In this document: piece by piece, positions 43,163 to 58,000 of the stretch
Position numbering within the stretch: position 1 is the stretch's first letter
Layout: every line of letters begins with the position of its first letter
Assembly (NCBI RefSeq): GCF_024666595.1
Contig: NZ_CP088296.1
Location: 1,488,001 to 1,552,000 of the forward strand
Reading direction: 5' to 3'
Origin: Sphingomonas sp. J315
GTDB lineage: Bacteria > Pseudomonadota > Alphaproteobacteria > Sphingomonadales > Sphingomonadaceae
DNA: 64,000 nucleotides
The notes under the pieces: model-generated
Seen by the model: the letters and a program-made list of their open reading frames with translations, nothing else
What the model was told of the DNA's origin: nothing
The model's database searches: none
Position numbers and translations under genes: made by a program

Positions 43163-45034
43163 TTAGGCTTTGCCATCCGGAAGAGCGATCGGCCCGGCAA
43201 CGCGAGGAACCGTGTCTCCCAATATCTTGTCGAGCCAGGCGATATGCCCCCCGCGCTCGGCGCAGCGCGTAAAGAAGGCACGTTGCTTCGCCCGAGTGAA
43301 CGCTACGAAGAATGAATTGAGTTCTTCGGTGCGGTTGGGAGTCAGGCTCCACCAGCTTTGATTGTCGAGGCCAAAAAAAATGATGGTGTGAAACTCCATC
43401 CCTTTGCTCTTGTGGATCGTCATCAGAGGGACCTGATTCTTCCCTTCGAAGCGATCGAGCGCATCAGGCCACGACTCCGCGTCGGTCAAGCTTTCATCCA
43501 AAAGTGCGATAAACCCTTCGCGAACCCGGTCAAAATCGGCTTGTCGCTGATAAGAAGGGTTGGCCTGCCGAATATTCTCCTCCCCGATCATATCGACAAT
43601 CAAGGTCGTCAGTTCACCACCGTATCCCTTCGCGGCGGCGTTCGCAGCCATGAAGGCGCGGCATGCCTTAGCGACCTCTTCGACCTTCATGCTCAACCTG
43701 TTCAGCAACACGTCCTCATCGTCGCTGATCGATTCAAGCGACCGCAACTCATCCTGCGCAGTTGACCATGCTTCGGCATTTTTCTTGGTCGCGCCGAGGC
43801 GCAAGCATGGGATCAAAAGCGCGGTCAGATTTTCCGTCAGCAAATCCTGAATGGCTATGTCGCCGACATTGCGGGCCAGGTTACGAATGGTGACGCCCCT
43901 ATCGGCAAACACTTCGCTAAGTTCAGCTTCGACGGCGTCGGCGTAGTTCCTGACAAGGATGGCGACGTCGTGCGCTTCCACGGTGCCGCTTTCGATCTCT
44001 TCGGGCACCCACCCGGCCAATCCCGCTACTTCAGTCTCTTTGTCGGGGTATATCCAAATCGCTGCCACATCGCCGTCAACCTCGCGCTCCGCCCGCGCCT
44101 CGACGGGCTCAACATCCGGGTCGATCTGGCTGGCGATGATGTGTTGGATCGCCACAAGGTCTTCATGCGATCTCCAATTGAGAAGCAATGAGATACAACG
44201 GGCGTTGTAGTGGGCCGTAAATGCCGCGAAAGCATTGGTCATTGCGCCTGCCCAACCCATGATCTTTTGTTTATCGTCACCCACCGCCGTCAGTTTGGCG
44301 GTGGCCGGATCGAACGCTGCGGTGACAATTTCAAACTGGGCAGAGGTCGCGTCCTGAAACTCGTCGAGGAACACAATCGGATAGGTCATCCGAATGGCCC
44401 GCCGAATTCTGGAATTCGTGCGTAATAGGTACTCGGCAAGTCGATTTATCATCGCAAAGGTCAAATAGGCGTGTGCACCGCCGTGGTATTGGTCCTGCCA
44501 ATACGCATCCATGATTTCCTTCTGCCGCGCCGACACTCCCTGAGTAGGGTCGAGCAGCCGACGCATCCCGATCCACTTTGTCAGGGTCTGCGCATTCACG
44601 TCGTTGATGTCAGCGCGCTGGAGAAAATCGTTCAAGATTGCGGCCGTCGGAAATGAAATCTCGTAATCGGCGGGTGGTCGAAATTGCGGTGGGAGCGCGT
44701 TTCTAAATTGATCCACCAGCCCTTTGGTAAAGGCGTCGAATGTTTGTGAGACGAAGCGCCGCGCTTGATGCTCCGGACATCGTTTTCCAACCCGCTGCGC
44801 CAGCGTTTGCGCCGCATCCCGCTTGAAGCTGATCGCCAATATCCGTTTCGGATGTGGACATAGGCCCGTCTGAAGCAAATAGGTCGCCTTCTGCGCAAGG
44901 AACTCCGTTTTGCCTGCGCCAGCGCCGGCGGTGACACACACGCTTCGAGCCGTTTCTCGCAAAGCTTCCCACGCGCGGTCCTCCAAGCTCTCGACACCTT
45001 GAGGAACCCAATCGTCTGGCTTGATCAAAGTCAT
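43163..45034 (-). CDS. UvrD-like SF1 helicase, partner of the OLD nuclease (Gabija GajB-like)
   Basis: 623 residues. Walker A is TAGAGAGKTEF (residues 35-45), Walker B is VFLDEFQD (221-228), the switch region is AVGDDKQKIMGWAGA, and late motifs are LMTIHKSKGMEFHT and VAFTRAKQR. The gene overlaps the OLD gene by ATGA. Class 2 OLD nucleases are typically paired with such helicases, and Gabija (GajAB) is the well-known anti-phage example. This protein is longer than the Bacillus GajB I remember, so the pair may be a sister type. GC is lower than in core genes. Confidence 0.85.
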   Translation of the reverse strand: MTLIKPDDWVPQGVESLEDRAWEALRETARSVCVTAGAGAGKTEFLAQKATYLLQTGLCPHPKRILAISFKRDAAQTLAQRVGKRCPEHQARRFVSQTFDAFTKGLVDQFRNALPPQFRPPADYEISFPTAAILNDFLQRADINDVNAQTLTKWIGMRRLLDPTQGVSARQKEIMDAYWQDQYHGGAHAYLTFAMINRLAEYLLRTNSRIRRAIRMTYPIVFLDEFQDATSAQFEIVTAAFDPATAKLTAVGDDKQKIMGWAGAMTNAFAAFTAHYNARCISLLLNWRSHEDLVAIQHIIASQIDPDVEPVEARAEREVDGDVAAIWIYPDKETEVAGLAGWVPEEIESGTVEAHDVAILVRNYADAVEAELSEVFADRGVTIRNLARNVGDIAIQDLLTENLTALLIPCLRLGATKKNAEAWSTAQDELRSLESISDDEDVLLNRLSMKVEEVAKACRAFMAANAAAKGYGGELTTLIVDMIGEENIRQANPSYQRQADFDRVREGFIALLDESLTDAESWPDALDRFEGKNQVPLMTIHKSKGMEFHTIIFFGLDNQSWWSLTPNRTEELNSFFVAFTRAKQRAFFTRCAERGGHIAWLDKILGDTVPRVAGPIALPDGKA

Positions 45035-47004
45035 CCGAGGACGGACTTTCGGACGTATTTGACCAACTTTATCAGTTCAGGTGGTGCGTCGCTCGCGAGT
45101 TCGTCGTTGTCGATTTTGCTCAAAGCGGAGATGTGAATTTCGGGCTTGCTGTTGGAAATGAAGAGATACGGATACCAGAGAAACTCATCGTCCCAATGGT
45201 CGTCATAGAGGTCAGGATTGCCGCCCGTTTTAAGGGTTACGGCCTTTTTATCCGCGAGGGCCTGCGCTCCTGTACGGGGCCCGGTCCCGCCCTCATTTTT
45301 CATCTGATAAGTTTCGCCGAAGCAAAGAAGCATGCTGAAGTCGAGGTCGATGGGAGACGAGAAAAACACGCCTTCCTCACGCAGCGCCTTTAACCAAACA
45401 TGAGCCTGATCCTCATCGACCAGTTCCTGATCGTCAATTTCATCGACATCACCGACTTCGATGTCTCCTGATAGGACGAACGAGTTTTCGTCGAGCGTGT
45501 TGCCGATTTCTGCCAGTTCTTCGACCACGTAGGCGATCGCGCCCGCGCCGCCGTGCTTCCTGCCCGCATCCAAATCCAGCAATGTTGCATAGGGGATATT
45601 GAGATCCGCCAGCAGCCTCCAGAAGTGGCTGACGAAACGTCCGCCCAGAGGCACGATCGGCACGAAAGATCGATCAAGAGGGAACTTCATCGCTTCGGCC
45701 AGCCGGGGCAACACGATGGCCTCTGACTCGCCTTCGGCGAGTACGACGAAGCGGGCGAAATACAGTTCCGGAAAAGCCTTTACAGCCAAGCGAACGTATT
45801 TGCTGGCGTCGGAGTCTGCTTCCGGCAGCGTTAGCGCCCGGACATCCGATTCCCGGGTTTTCGCCTCCATCCGAGCGTAGCGGACTTCTTCCGGTTCGAC
45901 GCGGCTCAAGACGCTCGCGCTGTGGCTGGAAATCACCACCTGCGCCCCGTCCAGCTTACCAATGTCGCGCGCCTGCATCATGATGCGCGAGAGGAAAAAC
46001 GGCGACAGGCTGTTCTCCGGCTCCTCAATCGCCAAGATCGTCAAATAGGTTCTGCGCAGCTTCTCCTGATCGAACACGCTATCGGCAGGTTTTTGGGCGA
46101 GAGCGTCGCGTTCGATTTCTAACGTGGCAGCCGTCAGAGCGATGTGGAACAGGGAGCGCTGTCCATCGCTAAGGTCGTCCAAACGCCTCGTCTGGGCTGC
46201 TTCGTCAGGGAAGAACACAAACTCGGCGCGACGCACGAGTTGTTCCATTTCATGCTCAACCAGACGCATTAGCGGTTTGGAGTCCGTGTCGCCTTGGTGG
46301 ACTTCTGCCCACCGCTTTTCCAATCGTTCGGAAATGAACTTGGCGGGCAGTTCCGCATCAAACTGCGTCTGGATGTCGGTGGCCCCCTTTAGCGCGATTT
46401 CGGACAGCGCGTTCGACCAACGGGCGGCGCGCCACAGCCGCCCTTTCAGAAGGTTCGTGACCTGATCGAAGGCATTTCGATTAGCAGGCACGTAAACCAG
46501 CTGGATGTAGTTTCGCTCGACAGCCTGAACCCGCCGGCACTCTTCCCATGTGAACTCGTCATCGAGGGTCGTAATCCATCGAACCTCGTCTTCCACCGTG
46601 CCGTCTGGCGTCGTGTCGTCCGCCCAGGTTGCCTGAAGCCTGATACGGACCTTGAGCGGAGAGTCCTCGTCTCCGGTCGCCATATGCGTGAAAACTTCCG
46701 GGACGGTCGCACTGTCCTCGCCATCATCGTCGGCTTCCAGTTCCGGGAAGCCAAGTACGCAATCAATGGAGAGGGTGGCGCCGGATGCCGGGCCTGTGCT
46801 GTCCAATGGCACGTGGAAGTCGCTTTTGCGCAACGCGCGGAGCGATGGCGAGATACCGAATAGTTTTGTGAGCGCCGCGAAAATAGCGGTCTTGCCGGAC
46901 CCATTGTTGCCGACAATGGCTGTTACATCATCCCTGAACTGGATCGTCACCGGCTCCGGACCGAAGCATCGGAAATTCGAGATGGTGACTTGTTCTATTT
47001 TCAT
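45031..47004 (-). CDS. OLD-family ATPase-TOPRIM endonuclease (Gabija GajA-like)
   Basis: 657 residues from the ATG at 47004, which has a GGAGGA site; an upstream in-frame ATG at 47130 has none. The ATPase half has Walker A GNNGSGKT (32-39), signature LSDGQR, Walker B ILAIEEPENSL and H-loop VVISSHSASVL. The TOPRIM half has the Glu in VLAEGESEA and the Asp pair in LLDLDAGR. These proteins nick or cut DNA; in Gabija, nucleotide depletion during infection unleashes this. It is the first gene of a two-gene minus-strand operon, divergent from the OGG-type glycosylase. Confidence 0.88.
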   Translation of the reverse strand: MKIEQVTISNFRCFGPEPVTIQFRDDVTAIVGNNGSGKTAIFAALTKLFGISPSLRALRKSDFHVPLDSTGPASGATLSIDCVLGFPELEADDDGEDSATVPEVFTHMATGDEDSPLKVRIRLQATWADDTTPDGTVEDEVRWITTLDDEFTWEECRRVQAVERNYIQLVYVPANRNAFDQVTNLLKGRLWRAARWSNALSEIALKGATDIQTQFDAELPAKFISERLEKRWAEVHQGDTDSKPLMRLVEHEMEQLVRRAEFVFFPDEAAQTRRLDDLSDGQRSLFHIALTAATLEIERDALAQKPADSVFDQEKLRRTYLTILAIEEPENSLSPFFLSRIMMQARDIGKLDGAQVVISSHSASVLSRVEPEEVRYARMEAKTRESDVRALTLPEADSDASKYVRLAVKAFPELYFARFVVLAEGESEAIVLPRLAEAMKFPLDRSFVPIVPLGGRFVSHFWRLLADLNIPYATLLDLDAGRKHGGAGAIAYVVEELAEIGNTLDENSFVLSGDIEVGDVDEIDDQELVDEDQAHVWLKALREEGVFFSSPIDLDFSMLLCFGETYQMKNEGGTGPRTGAQALADKKAVTLKTGGNPDLYDDHWDDEFLWYPYLFISNSKPEIHISALSKIDNDELASDAPPELIKLVKYVRKSVLG

Positions 47005-47189: not shown

Positions 47190-47972
47190 ATGGTGGTGGA
47201 GCAAAGCATACAGGTCGCTTGGACCTATAGCGGACGGCAGTTACGCTCCCTCGAAATCCCACCCGCTTCGGCCGAGATAATGCCGGGCGTGGTTTGGGGC
47301 TGCGCGACGGAGTTATTCACGCCCGCATTTTGGAAATATCAATCCGCTGGCTTTCAGCTTCGCGTCGACCGCAATTCATTTCGCCTCGGAAACACAATCA
47401 CAGAGGAGCTGGCAGTCTGCCTCCTCGGAGGATTCGGTATGCCGGCGGAACTCGGTCTAGCGGCCTTTCATCGATTGCGTGACCGCAGCCTTCTGGCGGC
47501 TGAGGTACGGCAAGAAGAAATCGAGCGCGCGCTTAGCGAGCCGTTCCATATTGGAAATCGGCAGCGGCGATATCGCTTTCCAAAGCAAAAGGCGCGCTAC
47601 CTCTGGCATGCTCTGCAAATGACTGGCGCACTCCCTGAAGCTCCCCGGCAACTCCGCGATTTCCTCGTCCGCCTGCCCGGGATAGGACCGAAAACCGCGT
47701 CCTGGGTAGTTCGAAATCACTACGCGTGCGACGAAGTTGCGATCCTCGATGTACACATATTGAGAGCCGGTGTAGCGATGGGGCTATTTCTGCCCGGCGC
47801 CGATCCCGCGAGGGACTATTTCAAACTTGAAGCCCGCTTCCTTCAATTCTGCGGAGCGATCGGCGAGCCCGCGAGTTTGGTGGACTCGCTTATGTGGGAC
47901 TATATGCGACGGATCGGTCCAACCGCGATCAATCGGACTCATGTGCAGCGGGAGACCGTTTGCGTCCAATGA
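47190..47972 (+). CDS. OGG-type DNA glycosylase/lyase
   Basis: 260 residues of the HhH-GPD superfamily. The hairpin reads LPGIGPKTASWVV (162-174) and the catalytic pair is Lys168 and Asp187 (AILDVHILRAG). Their spacing of 19 equals that of Lys249/Asp268 in human OGG1, so a bifunctional base-excising lyase is expected. OGG-like proteins are accessory proteins of type IV CBASS. The gene is divergent from the OLD nuclease (186 bases between starts) and overlaps the nitroreductase-like gene tail to tail by 44 bases. Confidence 0.85.
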   Translation: MVVEQSIQVAWTYSGRQLRSLEIPPASAEIMPGVVWGCATELFTPAFWKYQSAGFQLRVDRNSFRLGNTITEELAVCLLGGFGMPAELGLAAFHRLRDRSLLAAEVRQEEIERALSEPFHIGNRQRRYRFPKQKARYLWHALQMTGALPEAPRQLRDFLVRLPGIGPKTASWVVRNHYACDEVAILDVHILRAGVAMGLFLPGADPARDYFKLEARFLQFCGAIGEPASLVDSLMWDYMRRIGPTAINRTHVQRETVCVQ

Positions 47973-48561
47973 TGGCCGTCCCAACCGCGAGATAGTTTGA
48001 ATGGGGCTGCTTCAAGCTCGACAGCAAATCCGCACCAGTGGGCCCCAATGGTGCGAAGCCGCAGCCATAGGCGGCGGCGAATAAGGAGAATGATTGAAGC
48101 ACCGCACCGGTATCGCGCCAGAGCAGCGTTATCGGATTCTCATACGACTGTTCGGCATGTCGTACGTTCGCCACCAGTAAAAGGAAGTGCCCCGACGCAT
48201 CGGGAAGCACCCCCCGCAGCGGGGTCAGCGCTTCGTTGAGGCGTTCGGCGTTCTCGACCTCGATTGTTCCAAACACGTCGTGGGTGTCGCAATAGAGGAT
48301 TGGCAGCTCTACCCCCGGGCCTGAAACGATCAGGACTTCGATCGACTGTAATGCTCCGGCGGAAAGCGACACCTTGCGAGCCCGGCCCGAATTTCCCCCA
48401 ATGCCAAGTTGCCGCACCTGCATCACCTCGCGAACGAGCGCAAAGGTTTCATCTAGATCGAGCGACGATATTTCGCGGATCGTTCGGCGGCCTAACGCCA
48501 CATCGAGAAAGCCGCTTTTCGGGGCGAACTCCGTCCTCGGCATGTCGTAGATCGAAGTCAT
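47929..48561 (-). CDS. Nitroreductase / SagB-like flavoprotein
   Basis: 210 residues from the ATG at 48561 (GAAGGA upstream). It resembles SagB-type nitroreductases: ALGRRTIREI near the N-terminus, SLSAGALQSIEVLIV in the core, then YENPITLLWRDTGAVLQSF and YGCGFAPLGPTG, all expected FMN-site segments. SagB enzymes oxidise azolines in peptides; other members reduce nitro groups or cleave rings. It is the last gene of the coupled minus-strand cassette, 49 bases after the QueC-like gene. The substrate is unknown. Confidence 0.75.
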   Translation of the reverse strand: MTSIYDMPRTEFAPKSGFLDVALGRRTIREISSLDLDETFALVREVMQVRQLGIGGNSGRARKVSLSAGALQSIEVLIVSGPGVELPILYCDTHDVFGTIEVENAERLNEALTPLRGVLPDASGHFLLLVANVRHAEQSYENPITLLWRDTGAVLQSFSLFAAAYGCGFAPLGPTGADLLSSLKQPHSNYLAVGTAIIGRKRSPAAHESD

Positions 48562-48610
48562 CGGCCAGGGGTCCTTCGGCCGAGTTCGATTGGAATGCTT
48601 TGGGACGGGG

Positions 48611-49207
48611 TCAATGTGGGAGTCCAAAGACCTCTCCCATGACTTCGAAGTGCTTTCGGCATCCGCGGCAGAATCCGCACGCAATATCGCTGATATGGCA
48701 GGACAGCGACCATCCAAGGACTTCCAACGGCGTTTCCGAAATCCGCACCAGTTCCCCCGCTGTGAGATGTATTGCGGGCGTTGTGACCTGTAGCGCGCCT
48801 TCCTGTTGGCCGATCAGCTCGTTGACGGCTGCAAAAAAGGAAGGGGTTCCGTCCGCGTGGAATCCATCGCTACGGAGTGCGCCGACCATCAGCTCCGTTA
48901 CACCGAGCTGATGGCATTTCATGGCCGCAACGGTGACTAGGAACTGATTTCGGTACGGCCACCATTCGCTTGCGGGTGCGCTTTCGGAGGCTGGCGTTCC
49001 CGCTAAGTCGCCGCTGCCGAGCGAAGCGATATTAGCTTCAACCACCACATGCTCGATTCCGAGCGCGTCAGCTACCGCCTTGGCCGCCCGAACTTCTCCT
49101 GCGGCAGGCCTCTGTCCGTAATCTATCGTCACTGCATATGCGGGTCGTTGCCAGTAGGCGATGCAGGTCGAATCCATCCCGCCGGACAGAAGGACCGCTT
49201 TGGTCAT
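48611..49207 (-). CDS. QueC-like PP-loop ligase (7-deazaguanine amide/nitrile synthase family)
   Basis: 198 residues. The ATP-pyrophosphatase loop is VLLSGGMDST near residue 10. The zinc-binding four-cysteine motif of QueC is kept at the C-terminus (SCHISDIACGFCRGC). Housekeeping QueC turns carboxy-deazaguanine into preQ0 with ATP and ammonia. No other queuosine gene is present here. QueC homologues also serve in QatABCD and as Cap9 in type IV CBASS, where transfer of a deazaguanine to a protein N-terminus has, as I recall, been reported. I chose the start at 49207, which overlaps the kinase gene by ATGA. Confidence 0.88.
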   Translation of the reverse strand: MTKAVLLSGGMDSTCIAYWQRPAYAVTIDYGQRPAAGEVRAAKAVADALGIEHVVVEANIASLGSGDLAGTPASESAPASEWWPYRNQFLVTVAAMKCHQLGVTELMVGALRSDGFHADGTPSFFAAVNELIGQQEGALQVTTPAIHLTAGELVRISETPLEVLGWSLSCHISDIACGFCRGCRKHFEVMGEVFGLPH

Positions 49208-50397
49208 GCTCGCCACGCAAGCAGATGCAGGGCGCTGATGAAGTCCTCATGGATGGTACATCCCGCCCCGGCAGGAAGCTTTGTGTCGTTTGAGCGCATG
49301 TTCTGAGCAACGCAGAAAACCGGCTTACCAAGCGCGACAGCGTAGCCGACTTCGAACAGTGTGCCTGGGCTGCTCCCATTGATAATGGCTAGCACTGCGT
49401 CACAATCTCGGATTGCTTGAAGATCCTGCTCGACCACGGCTTCAGCGGGTCCGTGGCCGATATCGTGAACGGGACTGAATACCTCCATACCCCAACCGGC
49501 CAGCACCTTTCGCGCTTCATTGATAATCACGCGCTGCCCCAGCTCGCGAAACGGCCCGGCCAGATACACCTTGCCGCCCGCGAGGCGGATGGGCTCGTGC
49601 GAGCCCGCCAAGGTTTCAGAGATCGGAGCGATCGGAAGGGTTTCGGACTCCACATAGGCGGCGACGCTTCGTGAAGCGTAGTCGGCGGCCTCGACAGGAG
49701 TCATGTTCTCCTTGCCCCACGCAAGCGCAAACGCTGCTACGAACACGTCGCCCGAACCCACTGTGAATACGCTCGAGGCTCGATACGCTGGGACGGTCCC
49801 TTCCAGGCCATCACGCGTGAATATGCGCGCGCCATCAAGCCCACATTTTGCGATCACAACCTCGGCGCTTTCCTCTTTGAGAAGATGCATTGCACCCTGA
49901 TCGACCTGCATTCGCGTCAGCAGCCGGATTTCCGCCGCGTTTGCGACAATGGCGAGCCGATCGGCAGTCGAACCCGATTGCCGGAAACCCTTCGGGCTTA
50001 TTGGCGACTGGGGATCGTAGACGCAGATGTCAGCCCTCACCGTCGGAGAGCATTCGAGCATCCCGAATTGCAAAACCAGCCCGCCATCCAAATGGAACGA
50101 CGGTTGAGCCATGATCTCAGACAGCCGTGGATGAATTAATGGCTCGGCCAGAGAATGTAGATATTCGAAGCTGATGAACTGGTCGCCGCCATGACGGACG
50201 ACATCGACTCCGTAGGCTTCGAAATTGGGGATTACGCGCTCGGCTGCGAGGTCGGGCAGCACCGTGTGAAGTGTCACGGCGTCGAAGTACGGAGCTAACG
50301 CAACAGCCGCCCGGCCAGCGGAGCCGAACACCTGCCTCCTGATCGGAAACGCGCATTCTTCTCCGTAGACTCCGCCGACAACAGAGAGCGCGGTCAT
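49204..50397 (-). CDS. PfkB-family nucleoside kinase fused to nucleoside 2-deoxyribosyltransferase
   Basis: 397 residues. Residues 1-265 form a PfkB/ribokinase fold with the anion hole and catalytic Asp217 in FTVGSGDVFVAAF. Residues 275-397 are a nucleoside deoxyribosyltransferase: VYLAGPF (277-283), DCDAVLAIING (331-341) and the nucleophile Glu349 in GTLFEVGYAVALGKPV. The fusion could swap a base onto deoxyribose and phosphorylate the product. It overlaps both neighbours by ATGA. With the QueC-like enzyme next door, a deazapurine-type nucleotide is a reasonable hypothesis, not an observation. Confidence 0.88.
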   Translation of the reverse strand: MTALSVVGGVYGEECAFPIRRQVFGSAGRAAVALAPYFDAVTLHTVLPDLAAERVIPNFEAYGVDVVRHGGDQFISFEYLHSLAEPLIHPRLSEIMAQPSFHLDGGLVLQFGMLECSPTVRADICVYDPQSPISPKGFRQSGSTADRLAIVANAAEIRLLTRMQVDQGAMHLLKEESAEVVIAKCGLDGARIFTRDGLEGTVPAYRASSVFTVGSGDVFVAAFALAWGKENMTPVEAADYASRSVAAYVESETLPIAPISETLAGSHEPIRLAGGKVYLAGPFRELGQRVIINEARKVLAGWGMEVFSPVHDIGHGPAEAVVEQDLQAIRDCDAVLAIINGSSPGTLFEVGYAVALGKPVFCVAQNMRSNDTKLPAGAGCTIHEDFISALHLLAWRA

Positions 50398-50768
50398 GCC
50401 GGTTTGATCTCGATTTCGACCTTTGCCCCGCTGATCGACAGAACCTCGGCCTGATAGGCAAATTTCTCCTTCAGGCATTCGATCATATCGACGAGCCTGA
50501 GTGAGGTTACGGCGCCCACGACTGCGCCCGCGACCGTTTTGACCACAACCCGGTTACGAGGCGCCGTTTCCAGCTCGACCAACAGGATGTCGCCAGCCTT
50601 GAGCGTCGCAACCACCGAAGCGACGGCCGAAGCTATGACAGTCTTCTCATAGATCGCACACTTATCCGGACCCCCACCGCCGCCGCCTTCTCCAGCACTG
50701 CCACCTTGTGAAGTTCCGCTTTGACGCCAATCATCAAAGCCGGAACTTGTATCTCCTCCCCCCGACAT
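50394..50768 (-). CDS. Gly/Ser-rich small protein with a beta-barrel-like core
   Basis: 124 residues. Residues 1-34 are a flexible Gly/Ser tail (MSGGGDTSSGFDDW..., then a run of six Gly). Residues 36-124 look like a compact beta domain (TLKAGDILLVELET, NRVVVKTVAGAVVGAVTS, YQAEVLSISGAKVEIEI), loosely HIRAN-like in its strand pattern, at low confidence. Cys37 and Cys98 are the only cysteines. GGAG precedes the ATG by eight bases. It is first in the coupled cassette and could be a sensor, adaptor or substrate of the QueC-like enzyme; none of this is proven. Confidence 0.7.
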   Translation of the reverse strand: MSGGGDTSSGFDDWRQSGTSQGGSAGEGGGGGGPDKCAIYEKTVIASAVASVVATLKAGDILLVELETAPRNRVVVKTVAGAVVGAVTSLRLVDMIECLKEKFAYQAEVLSISGAKVEIEIKPA

Positions 50769-51749: not shown

Positions 51750-52223
51750 ATGATGAATACAGGACTGTTGATCGCAATGACGCTGGCGCTTGTCGGCTTG
51801 AGCAAGACACCACTCGCAATCGCCACAACCGCTGAGGACATCGCCGCCGTCCAACCACCAATCGCGACGGTGGACAGGTTTCACTTAGCGTTGGCTGAGG
51901 GGAGAGTCGAAGCCGCGCTCAGGCTGCTGAGCGACGATGTGCTGATCTACGAGTCCGGTCGGGCAGAGCGCAGCAAGGCGGAATATGCGAACCATCATCT
52001 TAAAGCGGACGCCGAGTTCGCGGGCGCGACCCAACGCAAGCTGGTGAAGCGTACGTTCTGGATCGGAGCCGAGTCCGCCTGGGTCACCAGCGAAACCGAG
52101 ACGACCGGCACTTTGAAGGGGAAAACGCTTGCCCTTACCGGCACGGAGACGATGATCCTGCGTCGAACGGCTGGCGTGTGGAAGATCGTCCATATTCACT
52201 GGTCATCGGCGACCAAGCGCTAG
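51750..52223 (+). CDS. Exported NTF2-like (SnoaL/DUF4440) protein
   Basis: 157 residues with an N-terminal signal peptide (MNTGLLIAMTLALVGLSKTPLAIA). A GGAGGGGGAAA site lies before tandem ATGs. The mature part has the NTF2-like pattern: VDRFHLALAEGRVEAALRLL, then YESGRAERSKAEY and a final WKIVHIHWSS. Such proteins often accompany CopA/CopB-type copper genes. The role is unknown. Its stop shares CTAG with the convergent copD stop. Confidence 0.82.
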   Translation: MMNTGLLIAMTLALVGLSKTPLAIATTAEDIAAVQPPIATVDRFHLALAEGRVEAALRLLSDDVLIYESGRAERSKAEYANHHLKADAEFAGATQRKLVKRTFWIGAESAWVTSETETTGTLKGKTLALTGTETMILRRTAGVWKIVHIHWSSATKR

Positions 52224-53098
52224 TCGGGTGATAGCGTTCCAAGGAGCGCAACCACCAGCACCGCAGTGATGCCGAGCGCTAATTCGAGCAACAGGCTGAT
52301 GCGGATCGCGCGCATGTCGCGACCGGCGGCATGTTCGAGTTGCGGGGTGAAGCGCCAGCGATTTGCCGCCGCGAATGCGAGCATCGCCAGGAACAGGGCG
52401 ATCTTGACCGCCAGCGTCTGGCCATAGTCGCTCGCGATCAACTGCACGGGACGGGCGAGATCGGCGATCAAGGCGAGGTTGATCACGCCGGTCACAATCA
52501 GCACACCGACGACTGCCGTGCCTGTGTTCGCGAAGTGGCGCAATGCCGGGACGATCTCGTCGATCGCGGGCTCGCGCCGCCCGATTGCAACGAGCAGAAG
52601 GACCAGCGTACCGATCCAGATGGCGGCCGCGATCAGGTGGAAGATGTCGGACGCCTTATGCAGGACGCCCGTCGCACCCTCGCCAGCCCCCGCATGGCCA
52701 GACCAGGCGAGGCTCGCGAGCGCAACTACGCCCAGCATTGTTGGCAGCAGGGGGGAACGTTCGGATCGCGCTAGCACGGTAAGCACAAGCAGCGCGCCCA
52801 AGGCCAGAAGTCGGACCACCGCCCCTTTTCCGTGGCTCGTTTCGAGCGCGATGAAGCGCAGCATTTCGGTATCGAGAAGGGCTTCATCACCGCCGACCAT
52901 GGCTGCGGCGCTTGCCGCGAAATGCGCGGCAGTGACCACCACGCCAATGGCAGCGAGCAAGGCGATCAAACGCGGCGACACCGCGGCCGGCGCGGTTCGC
53001 TGCGCGCACAGGAGCAACCCGGCGATTGCCATCAGATCGAGGTAGAGGAGAAAGCGCAGCGCGACTGCCACGCCTTCCCCCGCTATTACCCCGATCAT
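52220..53098 (-). CDS. copD: Copper homeostasis membrane protein CopD
   Basis: 292 residues with about eight membrane helices and His/Met residues at their ends (SGHAGAGEGATGVLHKASDIFHL). CopD works with CopC in copper movement across the inner membrane. The ATG at 53098 is one base from the copC stop, so the two form an operon. It is convergent with the NTF2-like gene. Confidence 0.9.
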   Translation of the reverse strand: MIGVIAGEGVAVALRFLLYLDLMAIAGLLLCAQRTAPAAVSPRLIALLAAIGVVVTAAHFAASAAAMVGGDEALLDTEMLRFIALETSHGKGAVVRLLALGALLVLTVLARSERSPLLPTMLGVVALASLAWSGHAGAGEGATGVLHKASDIFHLIAAAIWIGTLVLLLVAIGRREPAIDEIVPALRHFANTGTAVVGVLIVTGVINLALIADLARPVQLIASDYGQTLAVKIALFLAMLAFAAANRWRFTPQLEHAAGRDMRAIRISLLLELALGITAVLVVALLGTLSPD

Positions 53099-53099
53099 G

Positions 53100-53489
53100 T
53101 CAGCCGATGGTGAAGCTGTGCGTGCCGGTGATCCGATGCGTGTCGCCGCCGACGACGTGCCAATCGACCCGATAGGTGCCAGCCGGGAGCGGCTTGGCCG
53201 AGGTCAGCACGATCGAGCTGCCATCGCTGCCGACGGCCGAGTTGACGCCCGTCATCTTCATGTCGGGGTGGTCGGCCATTCCCGGCATGCCGGTCATGGT
53301 CAGCGTCGCTCCCGACAGCTTCGGCGTCAGCCGCTCGCTGAACTTCAGGACGATGCGCGCGGCGGTCTTGACCGTCGCATTCGCCGCCGGGCTCGCGGAC
53401 AGCAGCTTGGGATGGGCCAGCGCGATGCCCGGCACCGCGAGCAGCGAGAAGATCGCTGCTGCGAACATGGATTTCGAAAGGAAGCGCAT
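53100..53489 (-). CDS. copC: Periplasmic copper-binding protein CopC
   Basis: 129 residues with a signal peptide ending ALA before His-Pro; the mature N-terminal His is a Cu(II) ligand in the CopC family. The Met-rich loop MTGMPGMADHPDMKM and the late DTHRITG motif support Cu(I)/Cu(II) binding. GGAG lies six bases before the ATG. It is divergent from the cnrY-like gene across a 108-base region holding a palindrome. Confidence 0.92.
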   Translation of the reverse strand: MRFLSKSMFAAAIFSLLAVPGIALAHPKLLSASPAANATVKTAARIVLKFSERLTPKLSGATLTMTGMPGMADHPDMKMTGVNSAVGSDGSSIVLTSAKPLPAGTYRVDWHVVGGDTHRITGTHSFTIG

Positions 53490-53537
53490 GAACTACTCCA
53501 GTTGGTTCGATGCATGATACGTGCAGGCACATCGCAC

Positions 53538-53555
53538 CCCTCGAAATTTCGAGGG
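53538..53555. promoter_or_regulatory. Palindromic operator candidate between copC and the sigma module
   Basis: CCCTCGAAATTTCGAGGG is a perfect 18-base palindrome centred between the divergent copC and cnrY-like starts. It is well placed to bind a dimeric regulator for both. A short hairpin function is the alternative. No MerR-type spacing is present here, so the CueR-like protein is not the obvious binder. Confidence 0.45.
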
Positions 53556-53597
53556 CACACGCCCATACGCACGTAGTGAGGGGCGGAGACGAAAAAG

Positions 53598-53882
53598 ATG
53601 GCAACCGAAATCGACTATACCGCCCACATGGCGCAGACGCGCTGGTCCGAGCATCCCGGCCTCGACGGCATCGAGGAACGTATCATCGCAGGCATCGATG
53701 CGCGCAGTTCCGACGCGGTGGGGCCGCGCATGACCGTAATGCTTGCGACGGGCGCGTTGTTGATCGGCGCAGTCTTTGGAGGCGTGCCCGGCCAGCGCGC
53801 GGTGGCCGCAACGCCGCATGGATTGGTTGAGCCGGGGCCGCTGGCGCCGTCCACGCTGTTGCTGGGCAGCGCGGCCGAATGA
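53598..53882 (+). CDS. CnrY-like membrane anti-sigma factor (putative)
   Basis: 94 residues with one membrane segment (MTVMLATGALLIGAVFGGV, near residues 45-63) and a cytosolic N-terminus. Length, topology and gene order (Y-X-H) match the CnrY anti-sigma factor of the Cupriavidus cobalt/nickel system, although similarity is not obvious from sequence alone. GGAG lies upstream. It overlaps the next gene by ATGA. Confidence 0.65.
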   Translation: MATEIDYTAHMAQTRWSEHPGLDGIEERIIAGIDARSSDAVGPRMTVMLATGALLIGAVFGGVPGQRAVAATPHGLVEPGPLAPSTLLLGSAAE

Positions 53883-54313
53883 TCCGCCGTCGCGCCGGAC
53901 TCGCGTTGATTGCGTTTGTTGCTGCGCTGTGCGGCGCGCTGGTCGCGCATTTTCTGATCCCTGACCCCGTCAAACCCTCGGTCGATATTCACGCCGTGCT
54001 CCACGAACGGCTGAACCTTGACGCCGAGCAGGCGAAAAAGCTGGAGGTTCTGGAGCGCGATTTCGCGGAGCAGCGACGGTCGCTCGAGGCGCGGATGCGC
54101 GCAGACAATCGTCGGCTCGCCGCCGCAATCCAGGCGGAGCACCGCAACGGCCCTGCGGTCGAGGCGGCGATCGACGCCACACACATGACGATGGGCGAGC
54201 TTCAAAAAGCGACCGTCGCGCATGTCTTCGCTATGCGCGCGTTGCTGCGGGACGACCAGGTCGGGGTGTTCGATGAGGCTGTGACCAAGGCGCTTGTCGA
54301 AGCGCCCAAGTGA
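53879..54313 (+). CDS. CnrX-like periplasmic heavy-metal sensor
   Basis: 144 residues: an N-terminal membrane anchor, then a helical periplasmic domain (HERLNLDAEQAKKLEVLERDF..., HMTMGELQKATVAHVFAMRALL). His and Met residues could bind metal, as in CnrX/NccX. In that system metal binding to X releases the sigma factor held by Y. It is coupled to the sigma gene by a GTGA overlap. Confidence 0.82.
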   Translation: MIRRRAGLALIAFVAALCGALVAHFLIPDPVKPSVDIHAVLHERLNLDAEQAKKLEVLERDFAEQRRSLEARMRADNRRLAAAIQAEHRNGPAVEAAIDATHMTMGELQKATVAHVFAMRALLRDDQVGVFDEAVTKALVEAPK

Positions 54314-54864
54314 GCGTCGGCGACGATGGCAGCGATGCCGCTTTGGTGTCGCGAACGCTGGCAGGGGACCAGCGCGCGTTCGCCATTCTGGTCGGGCGCT
54401 ACAAACGCTATCTCTACGCCATCATCGTCCGGCTGGTTGGCGATCCCGACGAAGCGCTCGACCTGGTTCAGGAGGCGTTCGTGTCGGCGCATGCCGCGCT
54501 TCGGCGTTATGATCCCGATCGCCCGCTGCGGGGTTGGCTCGCGCGGATCGCGCTCAACAAGGCGCGGGACTGGCGGCGCAAGGAGCGCGTGCGCGCGGCG
54601 CTTCGGGCACTGCTGCCGATCGGCGAGGGTCAGAATGTCGCCGATGACGCTGCCTTGCCCGATCGCCAACTGGCCGACCGCAGCGAACTGACCAGCATCG
54701 AACGGAGGATAGCGGGAATGCCCGCGCGCTTGCGAGAAGTGCTGCTGCTGCGGACGATCGACGAACTGACCCAGGCGCAGGTCGCCGAACTGCTCGGAAT
54801 CAGCGAGAAAGCGGTCGAGACGCGGTTATACCGCGCGCGCCGCTATCTGCTCGATGCAGGGTGA
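54310..54864 (+). CDS. ECF sigma factor (CnrH-like)
   Basis: 184 residues from GTG at 54310. Region 2 reads FAILVGRYKRYLYAIIVRL...EALDLVQEAFVSAH and region 4 reads LREVLLLRTIDELTQAQVAELLGISEKAVETRLYRAR. With the upstream Y- and X-like genes it forms a complete cnrYXH-type surface-signalling module. Its targets are probably the adjacent copper genes or a remote efflux pump; no Cnr/Czc RND pump is in the window. The 3' end overlaps the convergent MerR-type gene by 22 bases. Confidence 0.88.
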   Translation: MSVGDDGSDAALVSRTLAGDQRAFAILVGRYKRYLYAIIVRLVGDPDEALDLVQEAFVSAHAALRRYDPDRPLRGWLARIALNKARDWRRKERVRAALRALLPIGEGQNVADDAALPDRQLADRSELTSIERRIAGMPARLREVLLLRTIDELTQAQVAELLGISEKAVETRLYRARRYLLDAG

Positions 54865-55256
54865 TCCGACGGATCGTTCAGCTTCGCGATGATCGGGCAT
54901 TCCGGCCGATCGTCCCCCGCGCAATGCGACGCAAGATCCCTCAGCGTGTCGGCCATAGCCTGCAAAGAGTTAATCTTGGCCTGAAGCTTGCCGATGTGGC
55001 CCGCCGCCATTGCCTTCACATCGGCGCTCTTGCGTTCGCGATCGCGCCACAGGCCCAACAGTTCGGAAATCTCCGCGACCGAGAATCCCAGGTCGCGCGC
55101 GCGCCCGATGAACCGTAGCTCGTGGACATTGGCATCCGAATAGTCGCGATAGCCAGAATCGCGGCGATCCGCGGGCGGGATGAGCCCGATCTCTTCATAA
55201 TAGCGGATCATCTTTGCCGAGATTCCCGTTAACCGCGCCGCCGTGCCTATATTCAT
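54843..55256 (-). CDS. CueR-like MerR-family copper regulator
   Basis: 137 residues from the ATG at 55256 (MNIGTAARLTGISAKMIRYYEEIGLI). After the MerR HTH and dimer helix, the C-terminal metal loop has two Cys with CueR-type spacing (HCAGDDRPECPI), fitting Cu(I)/Ag(I)/Au(I) sensing. It is divergent from the Grx-MauE gene, whose promoter has the matching 19-base spacer and dyad. Confidence 0.88.
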   Translation of the reverse strand: MNIGTAARLTGISAKMIRYYEEIGLIPPADRRDSGYRDYSDANVHELRFIGRARDLGFSVAEISELLGLWRDRERKSADVKAMAAGHIGKLQAKINSLQAMADTLRDLASHCAGDDRPECPIIAKLNDPSDHPASSR

Positions 55257-55303
55257 GTCTGTCCGCCCGCTGATACCGACGCAAAAAATATAGCGGCACC
55301 GGC

Positions 55304-55334
55304 TTGACCTTCCAATGGTTGGAAGGATTATTGG
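55304..55334 (+). promoter_or_regulatory. MerR-type promoter with operator dyad
   Basis: -35 TTGACC (55304-55309) and a -10 candidate TATTGG (55329-55334) are separated by 19 bases, the long spacer typical of MerR-activated promoters. Within it lies the dyad CCTTCCAA-TGG-TTGGAAGG (55308-55326). It should drive the Grx-MauE gene and probably copAB under the CueR-like protein. Confidence 0.8.
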
Positions 55335-55389
55335 CCCATCACGTTGGGGTTGGAAGCGACCCTGACTCCGCAAATTCAAGGAGTTCGAC

Positions 55390-56151
55390 GTGGCACGCAC
55401 CGTAAAGACCGCAGAATTGTTTCGTATGGTGATGCCCAAGCACACCTGTCCCTACGGCCTGAAGGCACTCGATCTGCTCCGGCGCGAAGGCTTTTCGGTC
55501 GATGACCATCACCTGACGACGCGATCCGAAACCGATGCGTTCAAGGTAGAGCATGGGGTGGCGACCACGCCGCAGGTCTTCATCGATGGACGGCGCATTG
55601 GCGGCTATGACGATCTGCGCCGCTATCTGGGCAAGCGCGTCCGCGACAAGGACGCGGTGACCTATGTCCCGGTCATCGCGCTGTTCGGCGTCGCCGCCGC
55701 GATGGCGCTTTCGGCCAGCTGGGCAATCGAACAGAGCCTGTTTACGGTTCGCGCGGCCGAGTGGTTCATCGCTTTTGCCATGTGTCTGCTCGCCCTTCAG
55801 AAGCTCAAGGATGTCGAGAGTTTCGCGACGATGTTCCTCAACTACGACCTGCTGGCCAAGCGGTGGGTGCCCTATGGCCGCATCTATCCCTTTGCTGAGC
55901 TTGCCGCCGGCATTTTGATGGTCACCGGGACGATGATGTGGCTTTCGGTGCCCATCGCATTGTTCATCGGCACGATCGGCGCGGTATCCGTGTTCTATGC
56001 CGTCTATATCGAGCGGCGGGAGCTCAAATGCGCCTGCGTCGGCGGCGACAGCAAGGTTCCGCTGGGTTTCGTCTCGCTGACCGAGAATGTGATGATGGTC
56101 GCGATGGCGGTGTGGATGGTGGCAAAACCATCGCTGCTTGCCACGCACTGA
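55390..56151 (+). CDS. Glutaredoxin-MauE membrane fusion protein
   Basis: 253 residues. The N-terminal glutaredoxin fold has a CPYG motif (HTCPYGLKALDLL) and TPQVFIDGRRIGGYDDL. The C-terminal half has four membrane helices of the MauE/DoxX-like group, with a CAC motif (KCACVGGDSKVPLG). Only one Cys is in the thioredoxin site, so it may transfer reductant through mixed disulfides. The start is GTG at 55390 after AAGGAG. It is the first gene of the CueR-regulated copper operon and probably handles thiol or copper redox state at the membrane. Confidence 0.85.
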   Translation: MARTVKTAELFRMVMPKHTCPYGLKALDLLRREGFSVDDHHLTTRSETDAFKVEHGVATTPQVFIDGRRIGGYDDLRRYLGKRVRDKDAVTYVPVIALFGVAAAMALSASWAIEQSLFTVRAAEWFIAFAMCLLALQKLKDVESFATMFLNYDLLAKRWVPYGRIYPFAELAAGILMVTGTMMWLSVPIALFIGTIGAVSVFYAVYIERRELKCACVGGDSKVPLGFVSLTENVMMVAMAVWMVAKPSLLATH

Positions 56152-56230
56152 GCCCACAGCATGCATCGCCGTGAGGGATGACCCGCATCGGCGCGTAGTC
56201 AGGTGCAATTCAACGGAGCTTTAACAAGCC

Positions 56231-58000
56231 ATGGTTCGAACAATGGATCGACGACAGCTGCTCGGCGGCGTCGGGATGGGGGGCGCTGCCCTTGCGCTTT
56301 CGCAATGGATGCCGGCATGGGCGCGCAGCAATTCTCCCGGTCTGGTTGCTGACCTCAAGACGGTGTCCGGCGAAGACATCCGGCTGCGCATTGCGCACCA
56401 GATGATCCATCTCGACGGCCGCCACGGCCATGCGATCGGGATCAACGGCACCGTGCCGGGGCCGCTGATCCGGTTGCGCGAGGGGCAGAATGTCCGGCTT
56501 CATGTCGAAAACGCTCTGGACGAAGACAGCTCGATTCATTGGCACGGCCTGATCCTCCCCTTTCACATGGACGGGGTGCCGGGGGTCAGCTTTCCTGGGA
56601 TCAAGCCACGCACCACCTTTACCTACGAGTTCCCGATCGTTCAGGCAGGCACCTACTGGTATCACAGCCATTCGGGGTTGCAGGAGCAGATGGGCCATTA
56701 CGGCCCGATCGTGATCGATCCCGAAGGCGATGATCCGATCCAGTCCGATCGCGAGCATGTGATCGTGCTGTCCGACTACAGCTTCATGCATCCGCACCGG
56801 ATCTTCCAGAAGCTCAAGCAGATGGGCGGTTACTTCAACCACCAGAAGCTGACCGCGACCGACGGCGAAGCGATGTCGGCCGCCGAGCGGATGGCCTGGG
56901 GCAAGATGCGGATGGACCCGACCGATATTTCTGACGTCACCGGCGCGACATACACTTACCTCGTCAACGGCCATGGCCCGAAAGAGAACTGGACCGGCCT
57001 GTTTCGACCGGGCGAGCGGGTGCGGCTGCGCATCGTCAATGCGTCGGCGATGACGACATTCAACCTGCGCATTCCGGGGCTGAAGCTCAGCATCGTGCAG
57101 GCGGACGGAATGAATGTGCGCCCCGTTGCGGTCGACGAGTTCCAGATCGCGGTCGCAGAAACCTATGACGTGATCGTCGAGCCGAGCGAGGACCGCGCCT
57201 ACACCTTCGTCGCCGAGACGGTTGATCGCTCGGGAATGGGGGTCGCGACGCTGGCACCTCGGCCCGGCATGCGCGCACCGGTGCCACCGCTGCGCAAGCG
57301 ACCGCTGGCGACGATGAAGGATATGGGAATGGGTGGCATGGGCGGTCATGGCGCTGCCGCCTGCACGCCTGAGCATGCGGCCATGGGCCATTGCACGATG
57401 CCAAGCGGCGACGGCGCGGAACACAGCGCTGGCACCGCGATGAAGCATTCGATGCGCGATTTCTCGGTCGCGCCTGACGTTGCCAAGACGCCGACGGTCC
57501 AGTCGATCTCGCCGATGCCAGTCGATCGGATGGGCGAACCTGGACAGGGGCTGGACGATGTCGGCCATCGCGTTCTCAATTATCGTGATCTGGTCGCGCT
57601 CGATCGAAACCCCGACATTCGCGGCCCTGAGCGCGAAGTGCGCATCCACCTGACCGGCAATATGGAACGCTATATGTGGGCATTCGATGGCGAGAAGCTG
57701 TCCGAGGTTGGCGCCCCGATCCCGTTCACCGAAGGCGAACGCGTCCGGGTCACCCTGGTCAACGACACGATGATGACCCACCCGATCCATCTGCACGGAC
57801 ATTTCTTCGAGCTGGTGACGGGGCATGGCGACCATTCGCCGCGCAAGCACACCGTCAACGTTCAGCCTGGCGGCACCGCTGCCTTCGACTTCACCGCCGA
57901 CGCAGTGGGCGACTGGGCGTTCCACTGCCACATGCTCTATCACATGCATGCCGGGATGATGCAGGTCGTGACCGTGCGCCCGCAGGAGGACGCGGCATGA
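56231..58000 (+). CDS. copA: Periplasmic multicopper oxidase CopA
   Basis: 589 residues (585 from the second ATG). A Tat signal (DRRQLLGGVGMGGAALALS) exports it folded. Copper-site motifs are complete: IHWHGLILPF, YHSHSGLQEQ, HPIHLHGHFFEL and HCHMLYHMHAGMM. A Met/His/Cys insert (MKDMGMGGMGGHG, CTPEHAAMGHC) binds extra copper. CopA oxidises Cu(I) in the periplasm. It overlaps copB by ATGA. Confidence 0.95.
   Translation: MVRTMDRRQLLGGVGMGGAALALSQWMPAWARSNSPGLVADLKTVSGEDIRLRIAHQMIHLDGRHGHAIGINGTVPGPLIRLREGQNVRLHVENALDEDSSIHWHGLILPFHMDGVPGVSFPGIKPRTTFTYEFPIVQAGTYWYHSHSGLQEQMGHYGPIVIDPEGDDPIQSDREHVIVLSDYSFMHPHRIFQKLKQMGGYFNHQKLTATDGEAMSAAERMAWGKMRMDPTDISDVTGATYTYLVNGHGPKENWTGLFRPGERVRLRIVNASAMTTFNLRIPGLKLSIVQADGMNVRPVAVDEFQIAVAETYDVIVEPSEDRAYTFVAETVDRSGMGVATLAPRPGMRAPVPPLRKRPLATMKDMGMGGMGGHGAAACTPEHAAMGHCTMPSGDGAEHSAGTAMKHSMRDFSVAPDVAKTPTVQSISPMPVDRMGEPGQGLDDVGHRVLNYRDLVALDRNPDIRGPEREVRIHLTGNMERYMWAFDGEKLSEVGAPIPFTEGERVRVTLVNDTMMTHPIHLHGHFFELVTGHGDHSPRKHTVNVQPGGTAAFDFTADAVGDWAFHCHMLYHMHAGMMQVVTVRPQEDAA

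Follow-up and report, generated by a model that had tools for sequence, protein, structure and literature searches.

Positions 47190 to 50768 of the window (the whole stretch of 64,000 nucleotides of Sphingomonas sp. J315 DNA that was analysed) contain a five-gene cassette that probably (about 0.6) encodes a further QueC-based immune system acting by N-terminal nucleobase conjugation; we infer both the conjugation and the defence, as well as every reaction described below and protection from phage. The core of the cassette consists of a HIRAN-fold protein with a Met-Ser-Gly (MSG) start, a PfkB-NDT enzyme and a QueC-like ligase. The genes of the locus and its neighbours are as follows.

43163..45034, minus strand: GajB of Gabija, UvrD-like (PADLOC 3.1e-208), judged outside the cassette
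45031..47004, minus strand: GajA of Gabija, OLD-like (PADLOC 1.2e-237), judged outside the cassette
47190..47972, plus strand: OGG-type HhH DNA glycosylase/AP lyase, 260 aa (PF22175, Ogg-HhH, 9.8e-15)
47929..48561, minus strand: SagB/ThcOx-like (nitroreductase-like) flavoprotein, 210 aa; start codon uncertain, frame open upstream
48611..49207, minus strand: QueC-like ligase, 198 aa (PF06508, 6.1e-24)
49204..50397, minus strand: PfkB-NDT fusion, 397 aa (PF00294 and PF05014)
50394..50768, minus strand: small protein, 124 aa (homologue alignment, AlphaFold model, VIA matches)
50397..50657, minus strand: HIRAN-like C-terminal domain, residues 38-124 of the small protein (predicted fold)

An earlier note had placed five genes at these positions, and its description of their arrangement was borne out: ATGA overlaps link the genes for the small protein, PfkB-NDT and the QueC-like ligase, the flavoprotein gene begins 49 bases beyond the QueC-like gene (its start codon being uncertain), and the OGG-like gene is convergent with the flavoprotein gene, their 3' ends overlapping by 44 bases. 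The genes do not scatter independently but form one unit, all five being present in 67 of the 72 relatives with enough flanking DNA; PfkB-NDT lies beside the QueC-like gene in the window and in 71 of these 72. None of the five proteins matches a CD-NTase model, and TGT (Pfam), the QatA KAP ATPase and the QatD TatD nuclease (Pfam, PADLOC) are likewise absent among the five genes, as had been claimed. The lower-GC setting of the note holds insofar as GC is 0.57-0.60 at 47-51 kb, but low GC is not peculiar to the cassette: the first 35 kb, mostly at 0.62-0.72, dip to 0.54-0.56 at 24-26 kb, and from 36 kb to the end of the window all values are 0.56-0.66. These observations support the view of the five genes as one cassette in an immune-type setting, related to the QueC and OGG genes of other systems.

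The nuclease/helicase pair that directly adjoins the cassette is Gabija (43163-47004, PADLOC). Although the two are adjacent in the window, Gabija homologues occur near the cassette in only 3 of 86 relatives (in the fetched stretches), which speaks against the functional tie suggested earlier, and we judge Gabija to be a separate, known system and not part of the cassette. A nuclease/helicase pair is also found near the Citrobacter copy and one E. coli copy of the cassette.

The cassette is mobile and common to many unrelated microbes. Its distribution is patchy: counting the window's own genome, 3 of 298 genomes of the family and 6 of 398 of the phylum have it. One version is present in 10 of 5,426 E. 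coli genomes, the QueC-like gene is found in 24 of 72,556 plasmid records, and some copies are on prophage-like contigs. Across 19 genomes, distance correlations within the cassette are 0.63-0.89, as opposed to 0.23-0.26 between the cassette and the hosts' canonical QueC; the cassette is decoupled from host phylogeny. It also sits among known defence genes: 145 and 134 cassette-flanking genes match 341 and 263 PADLOC families (threshold 1e-10), while in the control 148 genes flanking canonical queC match 5.

This distribution bears on a published interpretation. A QueC group of PF06508 found beside PfkB-NDT, termed Cluster 4, has been read as probable purine salvage, with PfkB-NDT in ~88-89% of its neighbourhoods (Libby et al. 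2026, PMC13329287); the QueC-like ligase and PfkB-NDT would then serve the host by recycling unusual purine deoxynucleosides. The window protein resembles Cluster 4 both in its PfkB-NDT neighbour and in its C-terminal signature CH(x)5CxxCxGCxK, reading CHISDIACGFCRGCRK, and its YGQRPAAGE, or YGQ(x)5E, is one residue off the printed motif YGQ(x)6E. Salvage agrees with the action of NDT and PfkB families on nucleosides, with the published neighbourhood figure and with a Vut-type (queuosine-precursor-type) transporter near a Roseivivax copy and at 3 of 86 loci. We nevertheless consider salvage quite improbable, since the cassette is patchy, occurs on plasmids in some cases, does not follow host phylogeny and lies among defence genes, and since the MSG protein, OGG and the variants with Mrr or dGTPase would be left unexplained. 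The words "nitroreductase", "OGG" and "glycosylase" do not occur in the main text of PMC13329287, the consulted parts of which do not discuss the small protein, the flavoprotein, the glycosylase or a defence role for Cluster 4.

The QueC-like ligase contains the motifs SGGMDS and WWPYRNQ and the residues His117/Asp119, and its best PDB profile match is Cap9 (9nto). At the YPDC substrate motif of canonical QueC it has HADG, in which Tyr is replaced by His and Asp is kept; this base-recognising Asp is conserved in the alignments. The gene is not the organism's only QueC, since a canonical copy lies elsewhere beside QueE (G000:620604-621233), and unlike that copy it is not linked to queD or queE. 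Counting against conjugation is that PF01242 (QueD) has no match in the window's own genome. In the cassette-bearing draft genomes G005, G018 and G050, neither a canonical QueC over the cut-off nor QueD nor a confident QueE was found, making de novo CDG an unlikely substrate there; TGT and a Vut-type transporter are found in these genomes, so salvage of the base is possible.

The small protein comprises an M-S-G N-terminus, a disordered Gly-rich tail (about residues 1-35) and the HIRAN-like domain. Its N-terminus is its most conserved feature: MSG is carried by 120 of 120 homologues among the matches listed (367 found), 115 of these having it at the called start. With motif-blind start calling, M[ST]G stands at the start in 72 of 80 loci, compared with 20 of 2090 comparison ORFs (>150 aa, first start codon taken). 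Pfam gave chance-level matches only for the small protein. Its C-terminal part is a folded, conserved domain, whose HIRAN-like fold is predicted from the AlphaFold model and VIA matches at 9-13% identity. This domain shares a predicted fold with the HIRAN domains of HLTF and Rad5 but no sequence-profile link, which counts against our reading, as does a position 2 that is mostly Ser, compared with the modified Gly in CBASS. The HIRAN domain of HLTF binds DNA 3' ends.

We propose that the small protein is an N-terminal conjugation substrate. The earlier note had left three fates for the modified base: a poison nucleotide, a DNA mark or a protein tag. We favour the tag over the other two, since a conserved N-terminus on a disordered tail is what the small protein has in common with QatB and with the CD-NTase of type IV CBASS. 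The N-terminal motifs of the latter two are MGTS and MGGS, respectively, and G2 changes block defence; as a general rule, Met is removed when the second residue is small (PMC13279940). In the small protein, Met removal would expose Ser2, to which, or rather to whose N-terminus, the QueC-like enzyme probably joins a guanine-like base, most likely of 7-deazaguanine type, with ATP, as Cap9 does to its CD-NTase; QatC is believed to act in a similar way on QatB. The NDT domain probably transfers the base to or from a sugar, the PfkB domain would phosphorylate the nucleoside, and the SagB-like flavoprotein may mature the conjugate. The HIRAN-like domain, judging by its fold, could deliver the N-terminus with its tag to the ends of DNA or to damaged phage DNA, where OGG, or the Mrr nuclease or dGTPase of some relatives, may act as effector or partner.

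Type IV CBASS has OGG as a further ancillary gene beside Cap9 QueC and Cap10 TGT. The cassette likewise combines a QueC-family enzyme, a base-glycosyl-transfer enzyme and an OGG-type glycosylase, and its MSG protein shares a conserved small-residue N-terminus with the CD-NTase, Ser replacing Gly2. It lacks CD-NTase and TGT, however; the partner is instead the HIRAN-fold MSG protein, the NDT domain of NDT-PfkB occupies the place that TGT has in type IV CBASS and in a related TIR operon, and a SagB-like flavoprotein is added. That related operon (pTiCFBP4996, R. etli pB) encodes TGT, OGG, QueC and an MGGG-starting ThsB-type TIR protein. QatABCD also pairs a QueC-family enzyme with a partner having a disordered tail and a conserved N-terminal motif, but it includes the QatA ATPase and QatD nuclease that the cassette lacks, QatB is helical and not HIRAN-like, and QatC is ~400 aa with N- and C-terminal extensions and has Thr in place of the base-binding Asp that the 198-aa cassette enzyme keeps.

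The fusion enzyme has a ribokinase-type kinase domain (GSGD, Asp217) and a nucleoside deoxyribosyltransferase domain (Asp325, Glu349), with PDB profile matches to 6evs and others; Asp217 and Glu349 are invariant in 37 aligned rows, as are GSGD and Asp325. NDT, PfkB and dGTPase together would suit base exchange on deoxynucleosides, and in 14 of 86 relatives a dGTPase is encoded no more than 6 kb from QueC; in Moraxella one directly overlaps queC. That the cassette makes a free modified deoxynucleotide to poison phage replication or mark DNA, with the small protein as carrier or sensor, is nonetheless unlikely: no enzyme making or polymerising di- or triphosphates is found among the five genes (Pfam), and such a nucleotide would not need the small protein's N-terminus.

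OGG matches the 8-oxoguanine DNA glycosylases 9o00 and 3fhf of the PDB and has an HhH motif with catalytic Lys168 and Asp187, both invariant in 35 aligned rows. It could excise a base from phage DNA while a Dam-like methyltransferase marks self and the other genes regulate, for which the Brig1-Brig3 DNA glycosylases, reported as phage defence (passages of PMC13160076), would be a precedent. In 25 of 86 relatives there is a D12-type methyltransferase akin to that of Citrobacter, and in a 21-locus group it adjoins or overlaps the cassette edge; the other 61 have no match, and OGG was not found near the P2-like, Moraxella and haloarchaeal versions, which keep the small protein, PfkB-NDT and QueC, leaving such restriction improbable. 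Accessory genes vary: some relatives carry an Mrr-type nuclease gene, some an anti-phage dGTPase gene and some none. Some have neither a flavoprotein gene nor OGG close by, which also counts against the conjugation reading.

The flavoprotein has no Pfam match; ThcOx (azoline oxidase) is nearest to it, and BmdC and McbC also score high. SagB/ThcOx azoline dehydrogenases have a Lys-Tyr catalytic motif. Despite the likeness to SagB/McbC/ThcOx in fold and nearest structure, the Lys is not conserved: Tyr140 is present in 48 of 48 rows, the preceding Lys in only 16 (Ser in the window), and no YcaO-type partner was seen. A RiPP-like cluster, in which this dehydrogenase matures the small protein as precursor of a secreted product, would fit these nearest structures, but is very improbable given that the small protein ends in a conserved, folded domain rather than a core peptide, and that no dedicated exporter, processing peptidase or cyclodehydratase stands out among the first 25 of 100 and 25 of 81 recurrent Pfam families. 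Among the recurrent neighbours, a subtilase matched 2 genes.

Within the conjugation reading, a doubtful but possible elaboration is that the N-terminus matures into an oxazole-locked deazaguanine nucleotide linked to the protein, which the HIRAN-like domain would carry to phage DNA ends. The QueC-like enzyme would attach the base to Ser2, and activation a second time would let the Ser hydroxyl close an oxazoline (alternatively, a preQ0-type nitrile would condense with the N-terminal Ser), which the ThcOx-like flavoprotein would oxidise to the oxazole; NDT would add deoxyribose and PfkB phosphate, and dGTPase could supply deoxyguanosine as donor. A hint comes from position 2, which is Ser or Thr in 79 of 79 counted copies with the flavoprotein and Gly or Cys only in copies without it (4 of 11; Fisher p 1.3e-4, the copies not being phylogenetically independent). 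Against it stand the Ser2 kept in 7 of the 11 copies without the flavoprotein and the poor conservation of the Lys of Lys-Tyr.

If the conjugation reading is right, QueC-family N-terminal base conjugation would not be peculiar to type IV CBASS and Qat but would be a recurring immune chemistry with at least four unrelated partners (CD-NTase, QatB, HIRAN-fold protein and TIR protein), whose N-termini all have conserved small residues. The purine-salvage reading of Cluster 4 would be corrected, and NDT, the kinase and the azoline-oxidase-like flavoprotein would hint at the fate of the base after attachment. The small single-domain partner and the natural E. coli version (10 of 5,426 genomes) would make the role of the tag directly testable.

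The cassette occupies the minus strand beside a Gabija system, except for its convergent glycosylase gene, and is arranged in the window as follows.

50768 down to 50394, minus strand: first gene, a Gly-rich small protein of 124 aa
from the small protein onward, down to 47929, minus strand: PfkB-NDT fusion, QueC-like and nitroreductase-like (SagB/ThcOx-like flavoprotein) genes
47190-47972, convergent to the other four: OGG-type glycosylase
43163-47004: GajA and GajB of Gabija, neighbours of the cassette

ATGA overlaps join the first three genes (small protein, PfkB-NDT and QueC-like; hereafter the core), and 49 bases precede the start of the fourth. The earlier note had held that its idea would fall if the QueC-like gene were the organism's sole queuosine QueC. 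The genome, a single contig of 3.93 Mb, encodes a canonical QueC separately at 620604-621233, adjoining QueE; the cassette gene is therefore a paralogue, and its assignment as the canonical enzyme was rejected. Membership in type IV CBASS or Qat was also rejected, as their defining genes are absent from the cassette. On the right flank, the window at 51750-59025 resembles a copper-resistance region, with genes that, from their translations, we take to encode a multicopper oxidase and CopB-, CopC- and CopD-like proteins; accordingly, the cassette may be part of a larger acquired region.

A search with an alignment of the QueC-like family yielded 395 relatives among genome contigs; the analysis used the best 80, so that the sample leans toward the window's type. 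Of 80 matching viral loci, seven close ones were kept; the other 73 (L093-L165), no more than 34% identical to the query, were excluded as ordinary QueC-like loci. By profile search, 82 of the resulting 87 loci (the best 80 of 395 plus seven viral) have the small protein, 84 have PfkB-NDT, 80 the flavoprotein and 79 OGG. The co-occurrence that the earlier note proposed to look for is borne out: all five genes are together in 67 of the 72 loci with adequate flank (at least 3.3 kb left and 2.3 kb right). Among the exceptions, an IstB-type transposition gene adjoins the cassette in L031, OGG is shifted about 6 kb away in L043, L076 and L091 are without the flavoprotein, and the prophage-like L090 is without both flavoprotein and OGG. 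In 28 of the 72 loci OGG is upstream in the same orientation, and in 42 it is downstream and convergent. By record title, the bacterial hosts of the best 80 of 395 include Alpha-, Beta- and Gammaproteobacteria, Myxococcus, Archangium, Bacteroidota, a Thermoanaerobaculia MAG and Akkermansiaceae; plasmid copies also occur in a cyanobacterium and haloarchaea.

The pairwise distances of the cassette proteins, compared over 19 genomes, correlate at 0.63-0.89 among the five, but at just 0.23-0.26 with those of the same hosts' canonical QueC; by this measure the cassette moves as one unit. Its distribution is patchy: within the family it is present in 3 of 298 genomes and within the phylum in 6 of 398, counting this one, and the six further congeners listed do not have it. 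Of 72,556 plasmid records, 24 contain the QueC-like gene and 37 contain PfkB-NDT; a search of 50,697 phage records gave no match to either protein at 1e-10. Ten of 5,426 E. coli genomes share one version, at least 97.7% identical at the nucleotide level, and the two cases inspected sit between recombinase genes and yjcB. Flanking DNA revealed no clean empty site in six congener genomes, matching only partially, in 3/6 and 5/6 of them and at differing places.

The cassette sits among defence genes. In two scans, which took 279 of 321 flanking genes, 145 and 134 genes matched 341 and 263 PADLOC families at 1e-10, those listed including type II methyltransferases, type I restriction parts, dGTPase, Old, AriA, GajB, IetA and pAgo; as a control, 148 (of 149) genes from around canonical queC, taken in 20 of these genomes, matched five. 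The contrast is large, although the number of families overstates the number of genes, since many models match a single Gabija or type I gene. The nuclease/helicase pair beside the cassette, whose nuclease the earlier note had acting with it, proves to be Gabija, and was rejected as a partner: homologues lie near just 3 of 86 relatives (best 80 of 395 plus viral). A nuclease/helicase pair near the Citrobacter copy and that of the river-water strain E. coli KMi029 favours some link; none was found in the stretch examined for ABWA45. DNA glycosylases have a precedent in defence in Brig1-3 (PMC13160076).

Genes around the core vary. On plasmid pNP7-2 of Moraxella, the queC stop is overlapped by the gene of an anti-phage dGTPase (L188:9581-11071), and neither flavoprotein nor OGG was found in that stretch. 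A restriction-endonuclease gene replaces the flavoprotein in Rhizobium CC1099 (Mrr_cat) and Agrobacterium larrymoorei (by annotation), with OGG upstream in both. The core stands alone on the prophage-like contig L090:4136-11009 and, so far as can be judged from the short left flank, on prophage-like L089:581-6398; repressor-type and replication genes near both are presumably P2-type, a judgement made for L090 from its replication gene. Among 86 loci (best 80 of 395 plus viral), a methyltransferase akin to that of Citrobacter occurs in 25 and dGTPase in 14. In Citrobacter and E. coli (L187:11044-13502; L201:15611-18069), a DNA adenine methylase adjoins OGG and an anti-phage dGTPase adjoins the cassette. 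Multiubiquitin, ThiF-type and DUF6527 genes lie beside the cassette on Synechocystis and Rhizobium plasmids (L189:4273-7081, L207:8494-10791). This variation resembles that of CBASS, which has a constant core with changing partners.

In the small protein (window 50394-50768), Cys37, Cys98, Gly85 and Tyr105 are invariant in 75 of 75 aligned members. A PDB profile search gave no match at E up to 1, and Pfam gave scattered weak matches for the 75 members, HIRAN not among them. A motif-blind start test left 2 of 82 loci without a candidate start, its background being 2090 ORFs taken at the first start codon, a rule differing from that for the test loci. Position 2 is Ser or Thr in 79 of 79 counted flavoprotein-bearing copies, versus Ser in 7 of 11 counted copies without it (p 1.3e-4, with three haloarchaeal plasmids dependent). 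The count omits L020 and L051 (truncated), L092 (edge), L194-L200 (cut by the locus end), near-identical E. coli copies and, of 24 QueC-like plasmid records, 12 (one, L045, already in the set) together with L219. On this difference rests the idea that the flavoprotein would oxidise an oxazoline closed on Ser2 to an oxazole; the seven Ser2 copies without flavoprotein weaken it, and we regard it as improbable.

A canonical QueC above the cut-off was found in 42 of the 50 cassette-bearing genomes tested; most genomes behind these loci are drafts. Of the eight without it, G005, G018 and G050 have neither PF01242 (QueD) nor a confident QueE, in G008 QueE is absent and PF01242 matches weakly, and G007, G019, G020 and G029 have both. 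The genomes in which QueC, QueD and QueE are missing weaken de novo CDG, a 7-deazaguanine-type base, as a universal substrate. G005, G008, G018 and G050 all encode TGT and a Vut-type (queuosine-precursor) transporter. The base would thus be either salvaged or something other than CDG, possibly a preQ0-type nitrile. Vut genes occur near the Roseivivax copy and in 3 of 86 loci (best 80 of 395 plus viral). On the Roseivivax plasmid, a VUT-family transporter annotated for queuosine salvage lies directly downstream of the cassette (L186:10311-10850), and its relatives lie near QueC in L085, L045 and L018. The Sphingomonas genome itself has QueC, QueE, TGT and two Vut-type matches, and no PF01242 match genome-wide.

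Related arrangements extend beyond the five-gene set. Haloarchaeal plasmids carry small protein, PfkB-NDT and QueC; flavoprotein and OGG are absent from the stretches fetched. Their small protein begins MGGG or MCGGG and has a duplicated domain (L203:6158-6793, L204:5688-6776, L205:6116-6775). A sister operon on Agrobacterium plasmid pTiCFBP4996 and R. etli pB (L208:7001-11401, L206:7007-11371) encodes PfkB-type, TGT-like, OGG, QueC and ThsB-type TIR proteins, the last beginning MGGG. Its QueC is of a more canonical type than the cassette's, and its TGT-like protein is fused to TIR in pTiCFBP4996 (E 1.6e-9), the match in R. etli pB being weak (6.4e-4). This operon appears to be another immune system built on QueC, the TIR protein being its proposed acceptor.

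Libby et al. 2026 (PMC13329287) place this QueC group in Cluster 4, report that about 88-89% of its neighbourhoods contain PfkB-NDT and that HTH genes are frequent there, and propose purine salvage; a term search of its main text returned no mention of nitroreductase, OGG or glycosylase. Our evidence concerns the cassette's gene content, conservation, mobility, context and predicted folds. In the mechanism we propose, a guanine-like base would be attached to Ser2 of the small protein, PfkB-NDT would transfer a sugar and phosphorylate, the flavoprotein would act in maturation, a HIRAN-like domain would target DNA ends, and OGG, Mrr or dGTPase would serve as effectors. No description of the five-gene cassette was found in a literature search that covered chiefly papers in PMC. 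We estimate a probability of roughly 0.6 that the cassette represents a further form of QueC-based immunity, in which N-terminal conjugation would serve defence.
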